A stretch of 64,000 nt of DNA from assembly GCA_003169895.1 (NCBI GenBank), contig PNAE01000013.1:1-64000 (forward strand), written 5' to 3'. This DNA is from Gemmatimonadota bacterium (GTDB taxonomy: Bacteria; Gemmatimonadota; Gemmatimonadetes; Gemmatimonadales; GWC2-71-9). Below the pieces are notes generated by a model, which ran no database searches, was not told the origin of the DNA, and saw nothing but the letters and a program-made list of their open reading frames with translations. The translations under genes and the position numbers were made by a program. How positions within the stretch are numbered: the stretch's first letter is position 1; each line of letters begins with the position of its first letter. Of this stretch, positions 12,036 through 20,690 are shown piece by piece.

Positions 12036-13030
12036 CGGATGTCGCCGTTCTTGGTGCCGGGAGCTGGGGCACGGTGCTCGCAAACCTGCTCGCGAACAAA
12101 GGCGTCAACGTCCGTCTTTGGGCCTACGAGGCGGATGTTGCAGACTCGATCACCGATCGGCACGAAAATCCGCTGTTTCTCCCCGGCGTGAAACTCGCGA
12201 CGACATTGCGAGCGAGCAACGATATCACGACCGTGGTACGTGGCGCCCCGGTGATCTGTGCGGTGGTTCCCAGCCATGTCTTCCGCGCGGTGCTCACCGC
12301 CATCGCCCCGCACGTGAGCGCAGGCACGCGCCTGGTCTGCGCCACCAAGGGGATCGAGACCGAGACGCTGAAGCTCATGGGCGGCGTGGCGGCGGAAGCG
12401 TTGCCTCAAGCAGTGTTTGTCGCGCTTTCCGGACCGAGCTTTGCTGAGGAAGTCCAGACCGGACAGCCGACGGCGGTCGTCGCCGCGTCCTCCGATGCCG
12501 CGGCGGCCAGCGCAACCCAGCGCCTGTTCTCGACGCCGAGTTTCCGCGTCTACACCAGCGACGATTGCATCGGCGTCACGCTTGGCGGGTCACTGAAAAA
12601 CACCATTGCCATCGCCGCCGGGATCCTCGAGGGCCTCGGGCTGGGCAACAACCCGCGCGCCGCGCTGCTGACGAGGGGTCTCGCCGAGATCGCCCGGCTG
12701 GGCGAAGCCCTCGGGGCTCGGGCGGCGACGTTCGCCGGACTGGCGGGAATGGGCGACTTGATCCTGACCTGCACGGGCACGCTCTCGCGCAACCGGCAGC
12801 TTGGCGTAGCGTTGGCGGGTGGGACCACCCTCACCGAATATCAGGCGACTCACCGCACGGTGGTCGAAGGTGTCAACACCGCCCTGGCGGCATCGCGCCT
12901 CGCCGCTCGCCACGGGGTCGACATGCCGATCACACGACACGTGGCGGCCGTGCTGTTTGACGGCGCATCACCCCGTGAGTCGATTCAGGCACTCATGGAA
13001 CGCACCCTCAAGGCGGAACAATGGGGATGA
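12032..13030 (+). CDS. gpsA: NAD(P)-dependent glycerol-3-phosphate dehydrogenase
   Basis: A 332-aa cytoplasmic enzyme reducing dihydroxyacetone phosphate to sn-glycerol-3-phosphate. The nucleotide-binding GAGSWG is at 8-13, the catalytic Lys is K189 in GGSLKN, and AGLAGMGDLILTC and RNRQLG are present. The frame is open far upstream, but GTG 12032 is chosen because it overlaps the plsY stop (GTGA) and begins at the Rossmann strand. The 3' end overlaps the next gene by 10 bases. Confidence 0.95.
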   Translation: MTDVAVLGAGSWGTVLANLLANKGVNVRLWAYEADVADSITDRHENPLFLPGVKLATTLRASNDITTVVRGAPVICAVVPSHVFRAVLTAIAPHVSAGTRLVCATKGIETETLKLMGGVAAEALPQAVFVALSGPSFAEEVQTGQPTAVVAASSDAAAASATQRLFSTPSFRVYTSDDCIGVTLGGSLKNTIAIAAGILEGLGLGNNPRAALLTRGLAEIARLGEALGARAATFAGLAGMGDLILTCTGTLSRNRQLGVALAGGTTLTEYQATHRTVVEGVNTALAASRLAARHGVDMPITRHVAAVLFDGASPRESIQALMERTLKAEQWG

Positions 13031-13470
13031 CGGTACCGAACCCGATTCAGCAATTCTTCTCGATCGGCGAGGTCTGCACGCTCACCGACCTCAAGCCGCA
13101 CGTGCTCCGGTACTGGGAGAGCCAGTTCCGTTTTCTGAATCCGGCCAAGAACCGATCGGGCAACCGGGTCTACAAGGCGCGTGAGGTCGAGCTGATCATG
13201 CTCGTCAAGCACCTGCTGTATACGGACAAGTTCACCATCGACGGTGCGCGACAACGCCTCGATCAGTACCGGCGAACCGGCGAACTCAAGACGGCGGCGA
13301 AGCAGGCGATGCGCTATGAGACTGTGCGAGACGTGCTACGATCGCTGGCGGATGTACTGACGGTGTTGAATGGCGGAGAGCTGGCGGCGCCAGCCATGCG
13401 GGATGAGGGCCAACCCAGGCCGAAGGGGTCGAAGGCTGGCCCGGGCGGCGAGCAGCTGACACTGGCCTGA
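13021..13470 (+). CDS. MerR-family transcriptional regulator
   Basis: A 149-aa DNA-binding protein. Residues about 12-80 form a winged helix of the MerR type (FSIGEVCTLTDLKPHVLRYW, NRSGNRVYKAREVELI). No effector domain or cysteine pair is seen after it, only a short helix and a low-complexity tail, as in the small MerR-like proteins that often accompany cell-division or lipid genes in this group. The start at 13021 lies inside the end of gpsA (ATG 13027 is an alternative), so it is co-translated with the lipid genes. Confidence 0.8.
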   Translation: MGMTVPNPIQQFFSIGEVCTLTDLKPHVLRYWESQFRFLNPAKNRSGNRVYKAREVELIMLVKHLLYTDKFTIDGARQRLDQYRRTGELKTAAKQAMRYETVRDVLRSLADVLTVLNGGELAAPAMRDEGQPRPKGSKAGPGGEQLTLA

Positions 13471-13491: not shown

Positions 13492-14484
13492 CTATGTCGG
13501 GCTCCGTCCCGCTGGCTCCCCTCCAGCCAGCAGCAACGCTGACAATCCGATCGCCATCCAGGCCAGCTCGCGAACGCGGCTGAGCAGCGCTGCGGATGTT
13601 CCCAGCTTGGGATCGAGTCCGAGCCAGGCAAACACCACGAAGGCACCCCCTTCCTTGGACCCCATCTCGAAGGGCAGAAAGAACAGCAGGTTCGTGAACA
13701 ACGACGAGATGTTGGCGACGACGAACGCCTTCGGAAAGTCAAACCCGAGGCCGAGTGCATAGAAGATGATGGTGTATTCGAGGGTCGAGAGCATCCGGCC
13801 GCCCAGTTCGGTGGCGAGGGCCCACTTGAACTTGCCCGGCGCCGCATGGATGGCAGTCAACTCGTCGTCGAGTTCCTTTAGTCGTCCGCGATTCTCCTCC
13901 AGGCGCCGCGCCAGCCGGCGCAGCGGCCTGAGCCTCCCCAGCAACGCAACGCCGCGCTCGAAGATGCCATCCCGGTGCTGCGACAGGAGGAAGGCGGCCG
14001 CGCCGGCGAAAGCCAGTGCCGAGACGCCGAGAATGATGAAAATCGGGAGCGTGTGAGGCAGCAGGATCGCGGCTGGAATGACCGCGCTCAGAAAGACGAT
14101 GATATGCGAGATCGCGTGCAGAAACCGAAACCCCACGACCGATCCCACCGCGCGATGCTTGCCGAGCAAGGGAGTCGCACCGCTCACCTTGAGGGGTTCG
14201 CCACCGAGCGAGAACACCGGCGTCGCATAGTTCATTGCGAAGGAGCTGATCGACAGGAGGTACGCGCGCCAGAACGTGAAGCGGGCCGGGCGTCGCGGGA
14301 TCAGCAACTGCCATGCGCGCGCGTTGCAGGCATACACCAGGGCCCAGAGGGCGATGAGCGGTCCGACGACCCACAGCGAATCACGCAGCGTGTGCCACAG
14401 CATGGCCGGACCGCTGTGGACAATCAGGATCGCCAGCACCGTCGCGCCAAGCACGAACGCGCCGATGCGGACGAACCTGTTCAT
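13492..14484 (-). CDS. UPF0104/LPG-synthase-type membrane protein (flippase-like)
   Basis: A 330-aa polytopic membrane protein with about eight hydrophobic helices, of the UPF0104 (YbhN / lysylphosphatidylglycerol synthase transmembrane) type. Recognisable elements are ARAWQLLIPRRPARFTFWRAY near residues 51-71, NYATPVFSLGGEPLK near 84-98 and PFEMGSKEGGAFVVF near 270-284. The soluble aminoacyltransferase half of MprF is absent. It is the last gene of a seven-gene coupled operon and overlaps the oxidoreductase by 4 bases. A role in translocating the lipid made by the operon is inferred from position and from the flippase role of MprF relatives. Confidence 0.75.
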   Translation of the reverse strand: MNRFVRIGAFVLGATVLAILIVHSGPAMLWHTLRDSLWVVGPLIALWALVYACNARAWQLLIPRRPARFTFWRAYLLSISSFAMNYATPVFSLGGEPLKVSGATPLLGKHRAVGSVVGFRFLHAISHIIVFLSAVIPAAILLPHTLPIFIILGVSALAFAGAAAFLLSQHRDGIFERGVALLGRLRPLRRLARRLEENRGRLKELDDELTAIHAAPGKFKWALATELGGRMLSTLEYTIIFYALGLGFDFPKAFVVANISSLFTNLLFFLPFEMGSKEGGAFVVFAWLGLDPKLGTSAALLSRVRELAWMAIGLSALLLAGGEPAGRSPT

Positions 14485-15488
14485 CCCAGCCGGACCCGGC
14501 AGCCTTCAGCCGCGGAGTGGTAGGCCGCTTCCAGCAGCGTAGCGACTTGCTCGATCTCGACCAAGCCGGCCTCGCCGTCGGCCTGGTCGATCGCATCCGC
14601 GAATTGGCCGAGAAGGCGGCTCATCCATCCAGCATACTCCCGTTTGTCCAGTTGCGCACTAAAATCGACCGCATCGACCGTCCCATCTCGCCTGGTCAAG
14701 CGGAGAACGCCGCCCACCCATTCGACCATGCCCTGGTCGCCGATGAAGCGGATCCGGTTCTCCCGCTGCTGCCCGGCCCAGGTCAGCGTCAGCGTCGCGG
14801 CGCGGTCGCCGTAATCGAGCAGGAGGTGGGCGGTATCCTCAACGTCATAGCTGCTGTGCCCGAGGCGGGAGAGGTGTGCCTGGATGGAGACCGGCATCCC
14901 GCCGACGTCGAGCAACAAGTACAGCAGGTGCGTGCCATGATCGAGCAGTACCCCGCCGAGGCTGTCGGCCTTGCGGGCGCGCCATGGCAGTCCATCGAGC
15001 GCCGCGCCGCGATCGGCCTCAGGCCGGTATACGTGGAATTCCGCCAGGTGCCAGCGGCCGATGGCGCCGGTGTCGAGCCAGCGACGCATCGCCATCCACG
15101 CGGGATTCTGGCGGTACTGATGGCAAGGAAACAGGACCCGGCCCGCCGCACGCGCGGCGCCCGCAAGATCGCGCGCTTCGGCCGCCGTGACCGCCACCGG
15201 TTTCTCGCAGAATACGTGCAGGCCGCGCGCAAGCGAATCGAGCACTAGCCGGCGATGCGTGGCAGTAGGAGTGCAGATATCGACGAACTCGATCGTGCGG
15301 CCCGTGCCGGCCGCGTCAAGGGACGGGAATACCGGAACATCGCCGAGATCGGGCGGGGGAATGCGTGAATCGACGGCAGCGACGATGCGCAATCTGGCGG
15401 CGAGGTGGTCGTCGTGCAGATAAGCCGGCAGATGGGCCAAGCGCGCAACGCCGCCTGCACCCACCAGCACACCGGCGCGCGCTGCCAC
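14481..15488 (-). CDS. Gfo/Idh/MocA-family NAD(P)-dependent oxidoreductase
   Basis: A 335-aa cytoplasmic dehydrogenase. The N-terminal Rossmann domain has VGAGGVARLAHLPAYL (8-23), followed by the family hallmark CEKPVAV near residues 94-100, and the C-terminal domain has GGVLLDHGTHLL with the conserved HG pair. Substrates of this family are sugars, inositols or polyols and their acids. It is sixth in the coupled operon (1-base overlap with the CDP-alcohol gene, 4-base with the next). In this context it probably oxidises a polyol or sugar so that the aminotransferase can act; this is inference. Confidence 0.8.
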   Translation of the reverse strand: MAARAGVLVGAGGVARLAHLPAYLHDDHLAARLRIVAAVDSRIPPPDLGDVPVFPSLDAAGTGRTIEFVDICTPTATHRRLVLDSLARGLHVFCEKPVAVTAAEARDLAGAARAAGRVLFPCHQYRQNPAWMAMRRWLDTGAIGRWHLAEFHVYRPEADRGAALDGLPWRARKADSLGGVLLDHGTHLLYLLLDVGGMPVSIQAHLSRLGHSSYDVEDTAHLLLDYGDRAATLTLTWAGQQRENRIRFIGDQGMVEWVGGVLRLTRRDGTVDAVDFSAQLDKREYAGWMSRLLGQFADAIDQADGEAGLVEIEQVATLLEAAYHSAAEGCRVRLG

Positions 15489-16375
15489 TACGCCGCCTCA
15501 GCCAGCCGCGGCGATCCTTGATCGAGAAGTGCGGCGGCGTGCCGTTCGTGAACCAGCAGTATCATGCCGAGAACCATCGACATCGGTACCAGCGTGATCC
15601 AGAAGTACGCGATGGGATGACCCGAGATGACCGTGACGCCGATAAGGGCCCAGCGAATGTTCTGTCCGATCCAGGCGCACTGGCGCACTACCGTCCGCTG
15701 GGAACCTGTCCAGGCTTCGCGAACGCTGCCGACCTGGTTGGTTGCGCGGAGCCGGCGCACCAGTTCGAGGGAACGTGGTACCATCGTACCGTTGCTGGTC
15801 AGGTAGTTGCGATAAAAGCGGACGAGGCGTGCCTGAAAGGCGCTGTGTGTCGGGATGGTCCCCATATCCTCCGCCAGCGCGAATTCGCCGGTACCCTCGG
15901 CGAGGTAGAGATACAGCTGGCGGATGTAGTCCACGCCGCCGGCCTGCTTGGCGTGGGCGATGCCGGCCGCGAACCCGAGCGGGATGACAAACCACCACGC
16001 GGCGCCGCCGACGATCAGGCGGGCCATGAGGTGAAACGAGAGGTTGCCGAACCGGGCTGCGTCGGCGATGCCGTCGAGCGTCTTGCCGATCCGCGTCGAC
16101 GTGCCGCGCATCCGCGCGAGCTGCCCGTCGGCGCTGTCGAAAATGTCCGAGACGACCAACAGTGCCACGCCGAGCGCATTGAGCGGGACGTTGTTGTAGA
16201 AGCAGAGGTGCCCGCCGACCAGGCCGACGACCAACGCCATGATGGTCACATGGTCGGCCGTCATCGTCGTCCGGTAGCAGGCGCGTGCAATGCGCAGGCC
16301 GATCGGACGGAAGATCCAGGTGTCGGTCCACTCCTCTACTGCGGCACCCTTGTCAAACGATGCGTTCGCTGGCAT
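15488..16375 (-). CDS. CDP-alcohol phosphatidyltransferase family protein
   Basis: A 295-aa integral membrane enzyme. The CDP-alcohol signature D-x2-D-G-x2-A-R-x8-G-x3-D-x3-D is complete in DSADGQLARMRG followed by GKTLDGIAD (near residues 80-105). About six membrane helices follow. The family joins a CDP-activated alcohol to a second alcohol, making phospholipids or di-polyol phosphates. It overlaps the aminotransferase by 23 bases. With a nucleotidyltransferase three genes upstream that could make the CDP- or NDP-activated head group, this looks like the condensing enzyme of a dedicated lipid pathway. The acceptor cannot be read from sequence. Confidence 0.85.
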   Translation of the reverse strand: MPANASFDKGAAVEEWTDTWIFRPIGLRIARACYRTTMTADHVTIMALVVGLVGGHLCFYNNVPLNALGVALLVVSDIFDSADGQLARMRGTSTRIGKTLDGIADAARFGNLSFHLMARLIVGGAAWWFVIPLGFAAGIAHAKQAGGVDYIRQLYLYLAEGTGEFALAEDMGTIPTHSAFQARLVRFYRNYLTSNGTMVPRSLELVRRLRATNQVGSVREAWTGSQRTVVRQCAWIGQNIRWALIGVTVISGHPIAYFWITLVPMSMVLGMILLVHERHAAALLDQGSPRLAEAA

Positions 16376-17690
16376 CCCGAAGAACCCCTTCCATGATGGC
16401 GAGCGCTTCCAGTGCGTCGGCTTCTTCGATCACCAGCGGCGGATTGATGCGCACTTCCGGGCTGTAGAGCATCGAGAGCACACCGCGTGCGAGCAGTGCG
16501 TCGAATATCTGCCGCGTGACCGACTTGTCGAGGAGCTTGCCGGTCGCCGGGTGCACCAGGTCCATTCCGATCATCAGGCCGCGACCACGCACATCCCGGA
16601 CGATCGGGATGTCGCCTTCCCACGACCGCATGACGGTGAGCATCCGTTCGCCGATACGGTGGGCGCGTGCCGGCAGATCCTCCTCGAGCGTGATCCGGAT
16701 CGCGGCAAGCGCCGCGGCAGCCGCGAGGGGATTGCCGCCATAGCTCGATGAACTCCCGCTGGGATTCGCCCACGGCGTCGAGAACGCGACCCGGTCCGTG
16801 GCGATGACGCCGCTCATCGGAAACCCGCCGCCGAACGCCTTGCCGACCGTCATGATGTCGGGTACGACGCCGTCATGTTCGACGCCGAACATTCTTCCCG
16901 TCCGGCCAAAGCCGGTGATCATCTCGTCGGCGATCAGCACCGCTCCCAGTTCATCGGCAAGCTGGCGCAGCTCACGCAGGAAACCGGGGACGGGAACGAT
17001 GTTCCCGGCCGTGCCCTGGATCGGCTCGACGATGATGGCGGCGACGTCGTTGGTGGTCTCCAACTGGATCTTCCGGCGCAGGAAACGCATGGCCTTCTGG
17101 AGGCATTCGTCGGGTGAAGCCGATGCGAACTCGTCGCGCGACGGACTGGCGTACGGCGAGAGATAGCAGCCCGGCATCAAGGGGCCGAGCTCGTGCTTGA
17201 ACGTTCCGCCGAGCAGCGGTAGCACGCCGCCCGTCTTGCCATGATAGCCGCCCCAGAAGCCGACCACCTCGGTCTTTTTGGTGAACGACTTGGCCAGGCG
17301 GAGCGCGGCTTCGACCGCTTCCGCGCCACTGGAATAGAACTGGGTCCGGTTGCAGTCGCCCGGCGTGATGCTGGCAATCAGCTGCACCAGTTCCGCGCGG
17401 TGCGCCGTGGCGAAACTGCCGACGTGCAGTCGCGCCACCTGCCGCTGCAATGCGTCGACGTACTTGGGATGCCCGTATCCGAGGCTGGCGACGCAGATGC
17501 CCGCCATCAGGTCGATGTACCGGTTGCCGTCACGGTCCCAGAGGATGGCACCTTCGCCACGGTCGAGCGCCAGCCGGCTGAACAACGCCACACCCTGGGT
17601 TCCCGGCGCGGCGAACTGCGACTCCAGTGAGAAGGTCTCCAACGATCGGGGACCGGGCACGGTCGCGACCGGCGCGGTTGCGGTGGTCAT
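16353..17690 (-). CDS. Class III pyridoxal-phosphate aminotransferase
   Basis: A 445-aa PLP enzyme of the ornithine/GABA aminotransferase fold. Visible are YSSGAEAVEAALRLA (PLP phosphate contact), GGYHGKTGG, IADEMITGFGRTG (Asp contacting the PLP ring) and VGKAFGGGFPMS with the Schiff-base Lys. Length is normal. It overlaps its upstream neighbour by 4 bases and the CDP-alcohol gene by 23. In the operon it probably aminates a keto intermediate produced by the Gfo/Idh enzyme, suggesting an amino-polyol or amino-sugar head group; substrate is not predictable from sequence alone. Confidence 0.85.
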   Translation of the reverse strand: MTTATAPVATVPGPRSLETFSLESQFAAPGTQGVALFSRLALDRGEGAILWDRDGNRYIDLMAGICVASLGYGHPKYVDALQRQVARLHVGSFATAHRAELVQLIASITPGDCNRTQFYSSGAEAVEAALRLAKSFTKKTEVVGFWGGYHGKTGGVLPLLGGTFKHELGPLMPGCYLSPYASPSRDEFASASPDECLQKAMRFLRRKIQLETTNDVAAIIVEPIQGTAGNIVPVPGFLRELRQLADELGAVLIADEMITGFGRTGRMFGVEHDGVVPDIMTVGKAFGGGFPMSGVIATDRVAFSTPWANPSGSSSSYGGNPLAAAAALAAIRITLEEDLPARAHRIGERMLTVMRSWEGDIPIVRDVRGRGLMIGMDLVHPATGKLLDKSVTRQIFDALLARGVLSMLYSPEVRINPPLVIEEADALEALAIMEGVLRDASERIV

Positions 17691-18517
17691 CGAACACTCC
17701 GTTGCATGATGGACGCTGTCGCAAGTTGGGCGATCGCCGTTGCCGCCTGCGTGCGCACCGGCGCAAAGCTGGGCCAGTCGTTGAGATCGACCAGAACCGG
17801 CGCGGTCCGTGACGCAACGACGGCATCCCCACCGAAGACGCGCAGCCCGACGACGCGGGCGGCCGCGAAGGCCAACCGGCGCAGCGCGTTCACATCAACC
17901 GTGTCACCGTCGACCGGCCGCCCATCCTCGCGGAACGCGTGGAACAGCGAGCCGTCACCGACGCCGTAGAACTTGAGCACCGGCCCCGCCACATGGGCCT
18001 GCACCGCAACCTGCCGGACGCCGCGGTCGCGGAACAGGGCGAGGGCGGCCGGCAGCTCCTGCCGCGGGGTGCGAACCACATCGGCCGCCCGCTGCGCGTG
18101 CACGTCTCCACGCTTGACCCACAGGTCGCCATCGGGCAGGTCGGTGTCCGCGATCGGCGCATCGGTGGTCGGCAGGATCACCGTGGCGGGAAACCGGAGT
18201 CCCGACGCTGCGAGGGTACGCACCAGGTGGTGCCGGTGGCACCCGAGCACACTCGACGGGAGGTTGAGGAGCGGCGCACCGGAGCGTTCGAGGTCGAGCA
18301 GGCGGGCGGATGCGCCAGGGCCCTGACACATGTTGAGATACAGATCGGCGTCGGGAATGATGCCCGCCTCGACGTCACCTTCACCCAGTCGCTCCACCGA
18401 CCAGCCGCGTTCCGCGAGGAATGACGTCGTGGCGTCCATGATCGCCGCGTCGTTGCTCCGGTGGCGGCCGGGTGAGTATGTCGCGCTCCGATAGATGGCC
18501 ACAACACGCACCGTCAT
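17687..18517 (-). CDS. ATP-grasp domain protein
   Basis: A 276-aa protein with RimK/D-Ala ligase-like layout. LWVKRGDVHAQ (with the ATP-contacting Lys) lies near residue 131-141, AVQAHVAGPVLKFYGVG near 171-187, and the metal site VLVDLNDWPSF near the end, with the D-x-N pair typical of ATP-grasp ligases. It would form an amide or ester using ATP through an acyl-phosphate. It is third in the operon, between the nucleotidyltransferase and aminotransferase genes, so it may attach an amino acid to the amino head group; inference only. Overlaps of 4 bases on both sides. Confidence 0.7.
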   Translation of the reverse strand: MTVRVVAIYRSATYSPGRHRSNDAAIMDATTSFLAERGWSVERLGEGDVEAGIIPDADLYLNMCQGPGASARLLDLERSGAPLLNLPSSVLGCHRHHLVRTLAASGLRFPATVILPTTDAPIADTDLPDGDLWVKRGDVHAQRAADVVRTPRQELPAALALFRDRGVRQVAVQAHVAGPVLKFYGVGDGSLFHAFREDGRPVDGDTVDVNALRRLAFAAARVVGLRVFGGDAVVASRTAPVLVDLNDWPSFAPVRTQAATAIAQLATASIMQRSVR

Positions 18518-19209
18518 GCCAGTCCTCCTTCGATCAGGGCTCGCGCGACGACGAGGTCGGCGCTGGTGTCCACATCCACGATCCGCGGCACTTCAACCGC
18601 CCGAATCCGGTGATGAGTCTCGATCAACCGCGCCAGGAAGCCGCGCAACCGCATCACACCCGACTGCACGGCCTCAGTTGCCGCCGCGCGTGCCCGCGCA
18701 TTGAACCAGTACACCCCACCGGTGACAACTCTGCGCTTGGCGCCGGGAGTGAATCCGGCGACAATTCCATCCGCGTCCACGTCCGCCCAGAGCGGTGACT
18801 CGTCGTCGACGAACGGCGTCACCGCGACGACCGCATCCGCATCGCGCATCGCGCGCACCGCCGCAGTGTGTGCCGCGTCCCAGTCGCCGTCCGGCATCAC
18901 CGTGTCAACCAGGCTGCAGAGCACGTCTCCCGGGGCGATGCTCCGCAACCCGGCTTCGAGCGTGTGCAACGAGGTCGCGGTCCTCAACGGCACGATCGCC
19001 ACTCCGGCGTCGGCGAGCGCTGCCGTCACTGCCGCCGCAAGATCGTCGCGCACGGCGCACGTCACGGTCTCGCAGCCAACCCGCCGGCACGCGGCCACCA
19101 GCCGCCGCACCTGCGGTTGACCGGCGACGGGCATCAGCGCCTTTGGCACCGTGATCCCGCTCGCCAGCAGCCGCGATCCTTCACCACCCGCCAGGATCAA
19201 GCCGTGCAT
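18514..19209 (-). CDS. Nucleotidyltransferase (sugar/polyol-phosphate NTP transferase family)
   Basis: A 231-aa protein. The N-terminal LILAGGEGSRLLASG then VPKALMPVAGQP is the NTP-binding signature of the GT-A nucleotidyltransferases (L-A-G-G-x-G-x-R-L and P-K-x-L). LVDTVMPDG carries a metal-binding Asp. It is short, without the beta-helix of GlmU-type enzymes, as in CTP:inositol-phosphate or mannose-phosphate transferases. It likely activates a phosphorylated alcohol as NDP/CDP for the CDP-alcohol transferase encoded downstream. It follows the HAD gene with a 1-base overlap. Confidence 0.8.
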   Translation of the reverse strand: MHGLILAGGEGSRLLASGITVPKALMPVAGQPQVRRLVAACRRVGCETVTCAVRDDLAAAVTAALADAGVAIVPLRTATSLHTLEAGLRSIAPGDVLCSLVDTVMPDGDWDAAHTAAVRAMRDADAVVAVTPFVDDESPLWADVDADGIVAGFTPGAKRRVVTGGVYWFNARARAAATEAVQSGVMRLRGFLARLIETHHRIRAVEVPRIVDVDTSADLVVARALIEGGLA

Positions 19210-19886
19210 CAGGCGGCCAGCACGTGCGGCAGCTGGTCAAACCGCGCGACGCGTGCCGTGGGCGTGATGCCGACCGCGACGCGCGCCGCCGGCGCCAACC
19301 AGCAGGTGCGCATGCCGAGCGCCGCGGCGGGAGCGATGTCATTGGGCGGACTGTCTCCGACCATCCAGCACGCCTCCGCTACGCTTCCCAGTGCCGCGAG
19401 CGTCGCCTCGAAAATCCGCCGGCCCGGCTTCCGTGCGCCGACCACTTCCGAATCCGCCACGACGTCGAACACGTCGCCCAGGCCGAGCTCATCAAGGCAT
19501 GGCTGCAGGTTACCCTGGTAGTTCGACACCACCGCCAGTCGGTAGTCAGCCGACAAGGCCAGCAGCACGCTCCGGTTCCGTGCGGCCGCGGCCTGGGCCG
19601 CTGCGACGAACGAGGCGCGGAGCGGCCCGGACCGCAGCCGAGCTCCGTCGGGCAGCAATGCGGCCAGCAGATCGACTTGGGCTGTGACCGTGGTCGAATA
19701 GTCGAACGTTGTGATGCCCGGCAGCTGCGCCAGTTGTACGTCAGACCGCGCGAAGGCGGTGCCGAATTCCGGCCGGTCCGCCGCGCCGCCAACCTCGCGA
19801 TACCCCCGGAAGAAACGCTCGACCCAGGGGTCGCCGTCCGCGTCGAGCGTTCCGCCAAAGTCGACCAGAAGCGCGCCAGAGCTCAC
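19209..19886 (-). CDS. HAD-superfamily hydrolase
   Basis: A 225-aa protein with the three HAD motifs: VDFGGTLDADG (motif I, nucleophile Asp in D-F-G-G-T), VVSNYQGN (motif II) and RKPGRRIFEATL then MVGDSPPNDI (motifs III/IV). It has a helical cap of type I after motif I. Motif I reads DFGGT rather than DxDGT, so the second acidic residue is a Gly; phosphatase activity may be altered. GTG 19886 starts the seven-gene operon. It would remove or transfer a phosphate in the head-group pathway. Confidence 0.8.
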   Translation of the reverse strand: MSSGALLVDFGGTLDADGDPWVERFFRGYREVGGAADRPEFGTAFARSDVQLAQLPGITTFDYSTTVTAQVDLLAALLPDGARLRSGPLRASFVAAAQAAAARNRSVLLALSADYRLAVVSNYQGNLQPCLDELGLGDVFDVVADSEVVGARKPGRRIFEATLAALGSVAEACWMVGDSPPNDIAPAAALGMRTCWLAPAARVAVGITPTARVARFDQLPHVLAA

Positions 19887-19920
19887 ATGACTCCACCCGC
19901 TAACGGGACATTGCGAGGAC

Positions 19921-19926
19921 TATAAT
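19921..19926 (+). promoter_or_regulatory. -10 element TATAAT of surE; very short leader
   Basis: A perfect TATAAT lies 8 bases before the surE ATG at 19935, in the 48-base divergent gap with the HAD operon. Transcription would start at or one to two bases before the ATG, so the mRNA is probably leaderless; no Shine-Dalgarno is seen. The -35 region is not well conserved. Confidence 0.5.
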
Positions 19927-19934
19927 TCCCAGCC

Positions 19935-20690
19935 ATGCACATCCTAGTTGCAAATGATGACGGAATCCTGTCACCGGGGCTGCAGGTGCTAGTGGACGCG
20001 TGCGAGGGAATCGGCCTGGTCACCGTAGTCGCCCCGGACCGGGAGCAAAGCGCCCAGTCGCATGCACTTACGATGAGTCGGCCCCTCCGTCCCGTGCGCC
20101 GATCAGACCGGTCCTGGCAGGTCGACGGTACCCCGACCGATTGCGTCCTGCTGGCCTTGGAAGCGCTGATGCCGGAACGCCCGGCCCTGGTGCTCAGCGG
20201 GATCAACCACGGGCCGAATCTCGGCGAGGATGTGCTCTATTCCGGCACGGTGTCGGCCGCGATGGAAGCCGTGGTCCTGGGCATTCCGGGCGTGGCAATA
20301 TCGTTCGCCGGACGGGATGAGCATCTCCTCTCGGGCTATCGCGACCTGGTTGCCGCCCTGGTCCGGCGTATCGCCGCCCTGCTGGATTTCCCGCGCAACA
20401 CGCTGCTGAACATCAACCTGCCACCGATTCCGGCGCCTGAAGTCCTCGGCGTTCGCGTGGTGCGCCTCGGCTCGCGCTTCTTTTCCGAGTCCGTGGCACG
20501 GCAGCAGGATCCCTGGGGCCGGGAAGTGCTCTGGATCGGCGGAGGCAAGATTACCTGGGCCGGTGGCGACGATACCGACCAGGCCGCGATCGCCGCCGGC
20601 TATGTCAGCATCACACCGCTGCAACTCGACCTTACCAACCACCAACTCCTCGAGACGGTGCGGGACTGGGATCTTGGCGGCCTGGCATGA
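19935..20690 (+). CDS. surE: 5'/3'-nucleotidase SurE
   Basis: A 251-aa metal-dependent nucleotidase that dephosphorylates nucleoside monophosphates (and short polyphosphates in some species). It begins with the metal site VANDDGI (Asp8, Asp9), and the second site SGINHGPNLGEDVLYSGTVS holds Ser88 and Asn91. Length is typical. It is followed with a 4-base overlap by pcm; surE-pcm pairing is a classic stationary-phase repair operon. Confidence 0.95.
   Translation: MHILVANDDGILSPGLQVLVDACEGIGLVTVVAPDREQSAQSHALTMSRPLRPVRRSDRSWQVDGTPTDCVLLALEALMPERPALVLSGINHGPNLGEDVLYSGTVSAAMEAVVLGIPGVAISFAGRDEHLLSGYRDLVAALVRRIAALLDFPRNTLLNINLPPIPAPEVLGVRVVRLGSRFFSESVARQQDPWGREVLWIGGGKITWAGGDDTDQAAIAAGYVSITPLQLDLTNHQLLETVRDWDLGGLA

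Follow-up and report, generated by a model that had tools for sequence, protein, structure and literature searches.

A conserved seven-gene operon of Gemmatimonadota as a candidate pathway for lipids with an amino-inositol head group

What head group is built by an operon that combines, in the order of transcription, the genes for a HAD-family hydrolase, a nucleotidyltransferase, an ATP-grasp protein, a class III aminotransferase, a CDP-alcohol transferase, a Gfo/Idh dehydrogenase and a flippase-like membrane protein? This operon lies on the minus strand at positions 13492-19886 of a 64,000-nucleotide stretch of DNA (the window, meaning the whole stretch analysed; contig PNAE01000013.1 of assembly GCA_003169895.1) from a Gemmatimonadota bacterium. 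A preliminary description had proposed a lipid head-group pathway with an amino-inositol as the simplest product. This proposal is supported by the same operon in Ignavibacteria and relatives, which in 12 genomes includes the genome's only gene for inositol-3-phosphate synthase (MIPS). We consider it reasonably probable that its product is a phospholipid or phosphosphingolipid with an amino-inositol (inosamine) head, made by a Kennedy-type route.

When public genomes were scanned with the ATP-grasp alignment, 80 loci were obtained, spanning Gemmatimonadetes, Verrucomicrobia/Spartobacteria, Acidobacteria, Ignavibacteria, Chlorobiota, Deltaproteobacteria and Bacteroidales. The presence of the aminotransferase and the Gfo/Idh dehydrogenase was counted for the 48 loci whose flanks exceed 5 kb on each side. 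Both genes were present in 30 loci and both were absent from 18, and not a single locus carried one without the other. From enzyme chemistry, the conversion of a hydroxyl group to an amine would need exactly such a pair. Mapped on the ATP-grasp tree, the distribution of the pair takes three changes, against an average of 8.1 after shuffling of the labels. The aminotransferase is the best-conserved protein of the operon, showing 47-55% identity to the homologues of Ignavibacteria, Verrucomicrobia, Acidobacteria and Desulfobacterota, which suggests one common substrate; its residues D255 and K284 are invariant among homologues.

The longer operon of Ignavibacteria and relatives encodes, with small variations and usually with the Mla genes, the nucleotidyltransferase, MlaE, MlaF, MlaD, the ATP-grasp protein, the aminotransferase, the CDP-alcohol transferase, the dehydrogenase, the flippase-like protein, the HAD protein and MIPS, in this order. 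In 12 aminotransferase-bearing genomes of this type (G298, G299, G300, G301, G382, G389, G422, G438, G439, G449, G456 and G464), the operon-borne MIPS is the sole copy in the genome, and genome G332 carries two clusters, one with the pair and the other without, each with its own MIPS. The sole MIPS inside pair-bearing operons is the strongest evidence for the inositol origin of the aminated head group. Homologues of MlaE, MlaF and MlaD are located between the nucleotidyltransferase gene and the ATP-grasp (or flippase-like) gene in loci L103, L106, L108, L119, L127, L179-L186, L188 and L189, which suggests a dedicated transport system for the lipid made by the operon. Tandem ATP-grasp genes were observed in four loci of the class Ignavibacteria (L180, L183, L185 and L186), all bearing the aminotransferase and the dehydrogenase; the second copy may add another phosphate, or the two may divide the work between them.

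Inspection of the open reading frames (ORFs) of the window confirmed the overlapping seven-gene layout. All the ORFs are present at the coordinates given before, and the six junctions, from the HAD gene to the flippase-like gene, overlap by 1, 4, 4, 23, 1 and 4 bases. The genes, with the two neighbours that mark the edges of the unit, are as follows.

19209..19886, minus strand: HAD-family hydrolase, gene 1, proposed inositol 3-phosphate phosphatase (PF00702, 5e-15)
18514..19209, minus strand: nucleotidyltransferase, proposed CTP:inosamine-phosphate cytidylyltransferase (PF12804, 4.6e-15)
17687..18517, minus strand: ATP-grasp protein, proposed inositol/inosamine kinase (profile and structure-model matches)
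16353..17690, minus strand: class III pyridoxal-phosphate aminotransferase, proposed inosose aminotransferase (PF00202, 7e-97)
15488..16375, minus strand: CDP-alcohol phosphotransferase, proposed to attach the head group to the lipid (PF01066, 2.8e-11)
14481..15488, minus strand: Gfo/Idh/MocA dehydrogenase, proposed inositol dehydrogenase (PF01408, 8e-17; PF22725, 2e-22)
13492..14484, minus strand: flippase-like membrane protein (LPG_synthase_TM / HpnL-like), last gene (PF03706, 2.9e-19)
13021..13470, plus strand: MerR-family regulator, convergent neighbour past the last gene, outside the unit (PF13411, 1.4e-16)
19935..20690, plus strand: SurE, divergent neighbour at the other edge, outside the unit, used to find the syntenic site in sister genomes

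Six of the family labels given before were confirmed by Pfam, above its cut-off, and NCBIfam (HAD hydrolase, MobA-like NTP transferase, class III aminotransferase, CDP-OH_P_transf, Gfo/Idh/MocA and LPG_synthase_TM), while the ATP-grasp label, sub-threshold in Pfam, is supported by profile matches and a structure model. The likening of the last gene to the MprF flippase holds for one half of that protein. The flippase-like protein (330 residues) has in common with the lysyl-phosphatidylglycerol synthase MprF the transmembrane domain, matching PF03706 only, but lacks the aminoacyl-tRNA transferase domain, and the Pfam scan detected no aminoacyl-lipid synthase domain in it. A 107-residue ORF upstream of the HAD gene (19883-20206), antisense to SurE and without any family match, was dropped as a gene. 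From their sequences, we read the ORFs adjoining MerR as the phospholipid genes PlsY and GpsA.

Is this arrangement a single unit? Among 298 sampled genomes of the phylum, the ATP-grasp gene was detected by strong matches in 32, the window's own included. All seven genes were found in identical order and strand in 27 of the 31 Gemmatimonadota loci from 30 other genomes, and in the remaining four the contig stops after the aminotransferase gene, indicating that the arrangement is more than chance. The genes were thus not scattered in relatives, and the conservation of the neighbourhood, proposed beforehand as a check, was borne out. In two genomes of the window's genus (G029 and G141), the operon is located at the equivalent site between MerR and SurE. 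At the same site, MerR directly adjoins SurE in G163 and G295 (window's genus) and G012 (window's family), and in G043 (L168 6864-7817) and G273 (L170 2267-3232) only the flippase-like gene is present, with 60-61% identity to that of the window. The operon is therefore gained or lost as one unit. The lone flippase-like gene is either the leftover of a lost operon or older than the operon.

The preliminary description had found no match to a known pathway. A tblastn search with the CDP-alcohol transferase reached loci of gut Bacteroidales, and in Parabacteroides, Prevotella, Bacteroides finegoldii and Phocaeicola massiliensis its core neighbours are the nucleotidyltransferase (annotated as 'NDP-sugar synthase'), the ATP-grasp homologue (annotated as 'hypothetical protein', 30-32% identical in the two loci compared) and the HAD protein. 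The flippase-like gene is often present in these loci, and inositol-3-phosphate synthase usually so. Heaver et al. 2022 (PMC9246714) described a 'putative alternative inositol lipid cluster' of Bacteroides and Prevotella, in which the nucleotidyltransferase, the CDP-alcohol transferase and the HAD protein are named. In that paper, the synthesis of phosphatidylinositol from CDP-inositol and diacylglycerol is inferred, a role in lipid exchange is assigned to the HAD protein, and the inositol-phospho-ceramide that mass spectrometry revealed in two species, B. vulgatus and P. veroralis, is ascribed to the alternative cluster; the ATP-grasp protein has no role in the published model and goes unmentioned in the main text as searched. 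As judged by homology, the core of the window operon corresponds to this cluster, with homologues of the nucleotidyltransferase, ATP-grasp, CDP-alcohol transferase, flippase-like and HAD proteins in similar order, and the published route is of the Kennedy type via CDP-inositol, as proposed here. In contrast to the Bacteroidetes cluster, the window operon also carries the Gfo/Idh dehydrogenase and the class III aminotransferase, which argue against plain inositol lipid as the product, and it has no adjacent MIPS; MIPS does adjoin the cluster in the aminotransferase-bearing operons of Ignavibacteria.

The individual proteins were compared with enzymes of inositol metabolism. The family profile of the nucleotidyltransferase matched the A. 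fulgidus CTP:inositol-1-phosphate cytidylyltransferase (2xme and 4mnd) over its full length, with E about 1e-12. The CDP-alcohol transferase carries the complete D..DG..AR...G...D...D motif, which varies little or not at all among homologues. Its best match in both sequence and fold is AF2299, followed by the PIP synthases and IPCT-DIPPS; the model of the transferase (predicted local distance difference test, pLDDT, 91.5) shows C-terminal helices past the conserved domain. In the Gfo/Idh protein, the catalytic Lys, Asp and His (K96, D183 and H187) are invariant in 22 homologues across phyla, a superfamily-wide feature that does not prove the substrate. For the ATP-grasp protein, profile matches to three inositol phosphate kinases from plant, amoeba and human, namely ITPK4 (3e-5), E. 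histolytica ITPK and human ITPK1, ranged from 3e-5 to 0.02. Its K135, D231, D244 and N246 are invariant, and the D-x-N metal site, found in all 32 members, is followed by PS[FY] as in ITPK4 (DLNYLPSF) and E. histolytica ITPK (DVNVFPSY). Its model (pLDDT 94.6) matches ATP-grasp structures. From the profile matches and the metal motif we lean towards a kinase, short of proof. The S, KP and GD..D motifs of the HAD protein are invariant in 25 homologues, and its gene, as well as the flippase-like gene, is retained in nearly all and in most of the related clusters, respectively.

Based on these comparisons, we propose the following route, in which the substrates and the order of the steps are our inference. 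MIPS, encoded elsewhere in the window genome, would supply inositol 3-phosphate, from which the HAD protein would remove the phosphate. One ring hydroxyl of inositol would then be oxidised to give inosose by the Gfo/Idh enzyme, and inosose would be converted to inosamine by the class III aminotransferase. The ATP-grasp protein, taken as a kinase rather than a ligase, would phosphorylate inosamine at the position to be linked, and the nucleotidyltransferase would form CDP-inosamine. The CDP-alcohol transferase would transfer phospho-inosamine to the lipid acceptor, either diacylglycerol or ceramide, and the flippase-like protein, with MlaEFD as partner in Ignavibacteria, would move the lipid across the membrane. 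By extension, the Gemmatimonadota version would follow the same course. Where the pair is lacking, the HAD and ATP-grasp proteins of a cluster might shift the phosphate from position 3 elsewhere before activation. Such a shift would give a purpose to both proteins that is absent from the published scheme. The earlier statement that the operon supplies every step has to be corrected, as the inositol phosphate must come from outside, from the MIPS on contig C5.

Several observations weigh against this reading. The window operon lacks its own MIPS, and the MIPS on contig C5 proves little by its presence, because MIPS is near-universal in the phylum (278 of 298 genomes). Between phyla, identity is only about 25-35% for the Gfo/Idh, CDP-alcohol transferase, nucleotidyltransferase and HAD proteins, and their substrates could therefore have shifted. 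Motif I of the HAD protein is DxGGT[LI]D in all 25 homologues, with Gly in place of the Asp at +2, and the assignment as phosphatase is weakened by this substitution; some HAD phosphatases tolerate the loss of the second motif I Asp. The Gfo/Idh profile matched general sugar oxidoreductases best and was not specifically nearest to inositol dehydrogenases. In a Foldseek search with the ATP-grasp model, D-Ala-D-Ala ligases, ArgX and RimK ranked first, and kinase and ligase were not separated. No inosamine or amino-inositol lipid was found in the literature searched, which covered few subscription journals and no preprints and may miss an earlier report; within this literature the core of the pathway is known in outline and the amination branch is undescribed. 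An unidentified 'aminolipid' is listed among the polar lipids of Gemmatimonas groenlandica (PMC7844134), but it is not counted here since carriage of the operon by this species could not be shown.

Could the head group be an aminated sugar or another polyol not derived from inositol? In this case the pair would act on a sugar or sugar-phosphate derivative, and the MIPS of the relatives would feed a parallel inositol lipid. Pairs of Gfo/Idh dehydrogenase and aminotransferase elsewhere make 3-amino sugars, and the sugar oxidoreductase matches and the absence of MIPS from the window operon fit this view. Many sugar nucleotidyltransferases also match the nucleotidyltransferase as well as the inositol enzyme does, outscoring it slightly against the family profile, although mostly over the first 180 positions only. 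We regard a non-inositol head group as unlikely, given that the operon holds the only MIPS of the genome in the 12 pair-bearing relatives, that the genes are unaccompanied by a glycosyltransferase or an epimerase, and that the pair-less clusters are tied to MIPS and to inositol lipids (PMC9246714).

The ATP-grasp protein might instead be a carboxylate-amine ligase, the finished head group being an aminoacylated amino-polyol, as the preliminary description had allowed. Besides the fold ranking, this is favoured by the ATP-grasp-domain protein 7drm, which is the top profile match of the broader family, and by weak Pfam matches to RimK in five family members, against matches, also weak, to the inositol kinase (ITPK) domain in two of 32; in the window protein itself no Pfam ligase family was detected above the cut-off. 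The ATP-grasp gene is, however, equally present in clusters without the aminotransferase, where there is no evident amine and where the lineage makes plain inositol-phospho-ceramide, as reported in the Bacteroidetes study. Moreover, the D-x-N and PS[FY] elements are shared with inositol phosphate kinases, whereas 7drm has E-x-N at the aligned position. Amino-acid ligation is therefore disfavoured, and we judge it quite unlikely. It is highly improbable that the CDP-alcohol enzyme couples two soluble molecules into an aminated compatible solute, as for di-myo-inositol phosphate: the two halves of that archaeal pathway, IPCT and DIPPS, are indeed matched by the nucleotidyltransferase and the CDP-alcohol transferase, but the flippase-like gene is conserved, the MlaEFD lipid-transport genes lie in the same operon, and inositol lipids are assigned to the homologous core of Bacteroidetes in the cited text.

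The amino-inositol lipid reading can be set beside other known systems. With the archaeal and hyperthermophile CDP-inositol pathway (IPCT, DIPPS and AF2299), the window has in common the cytidylyltransferase-like and CDP-alcohol transferase-like proteins. In contrast to the fused IPCT-DIPPS, they are encoded by separate genes with two genes between, the transferase has the extra C-terminal helices, and kinase-like, dehydrogenase and aminotransferase genes are added. The inosamine module of streptomycin synthesis consists of MIPS, a phosphatase, a Gfo/Idh dehydrogenase, an aminotransferase and then an aminocyclitol kinase. The proposed route resembles this module in outline; in the window, however, the aminotransferase is of class III and not DegT-type, an ATP-grasp protein is present instead of the antibiotic-type kinase, and the product would be directed to lipid. 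CpgD of Caulobacter, the sphingolipid phosphoglycerate cytidylyltransferase that makes CDP-glycerate, is, like the window nucleotidyltransferase, similar to inositol-phosphate cytidylyltransferases and activates a polar lipid head group, but involves neither amination nor inositol (PMC12275187).

Few bacteria are thought to make inositol lipids, and their alternative route to these lipids is uncharacterised. The ATP-grasp protein would be a component of this pathway previously unmentioned in the main text of PMC9246714 as searched, and the HAD gene is offered a reason, phosphate relocation rather than lipid exchange. In wider scope, the chances seem about even that the operons of Gemmatimonadota, Ignavibacteriota, Verrucomicrobiota, Acidobacteriota and Desulfobacterota define a class of aminocyclitol-phosphate membrane lipids, built by joining a streptomycin-like amination to the CDP-inositol route, where a bacterial ATP-grasp protein serves as the inositol kinase and MlaEFD is a dedicated transporter in some of the phyla. 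A cationic or zwitterionic inositol lipid is predicted in several phyla, mostly in uncultured soil and sediment bacteria, with a mass 0.984 Da below that of the matching phosphatidylinositol (OH to NH2). The operon genes may serve as markers to be sought alongside lipidomes, and they connect a specific head group with a system for lipid transport.

Some further gene arrangements were noted. The MIPS gene of the window genome (G000:C5:34544-36686; L075 6545-8687) directly adjoins another CDP-alcohol transferase gene, and the two probably represent a conventional inositol phospholipid pathway. In genomes G032, G176, G199 and G269 (L175, L176, L177 and L178), the dehydrogenase and aminotransferase genes are adjacent to each other without the ATP-grasp gene or the rest of the operon; inspection of these four orphan pairs gave no clue to the substrate, and in L176 and L177 the gene upstream of the pair resembles threonine synthase by eye. 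A different, weakly related CDP-alcohol transferase was found near the operon in Desulfobacterota loci. Longer CDP-alcohol transferases (294-489 residues), on the opposite strand or downstream, were found near operons of Desulfobacterota, Acidobacteria and Spartobacteria (L105, L110, L118, L135 and L099), their N-terminal part being unmatched in Pfam. L105 belongs to Desulfoferrobacter suflitae, a named carrier of the dehydrogenase, aminotransferase and ATP-grasp genes. In Parabacteroides distasonis (L037, 7750-10683), a related CDP-alcohol transferase is grouped with a gene of the adenylyltransferase/cytidyltransferase family, an SDR oxidoreductase and a lysophospholipid acyltransferase; together they may form another uncharacterised CDP-head-group lipid pathway.

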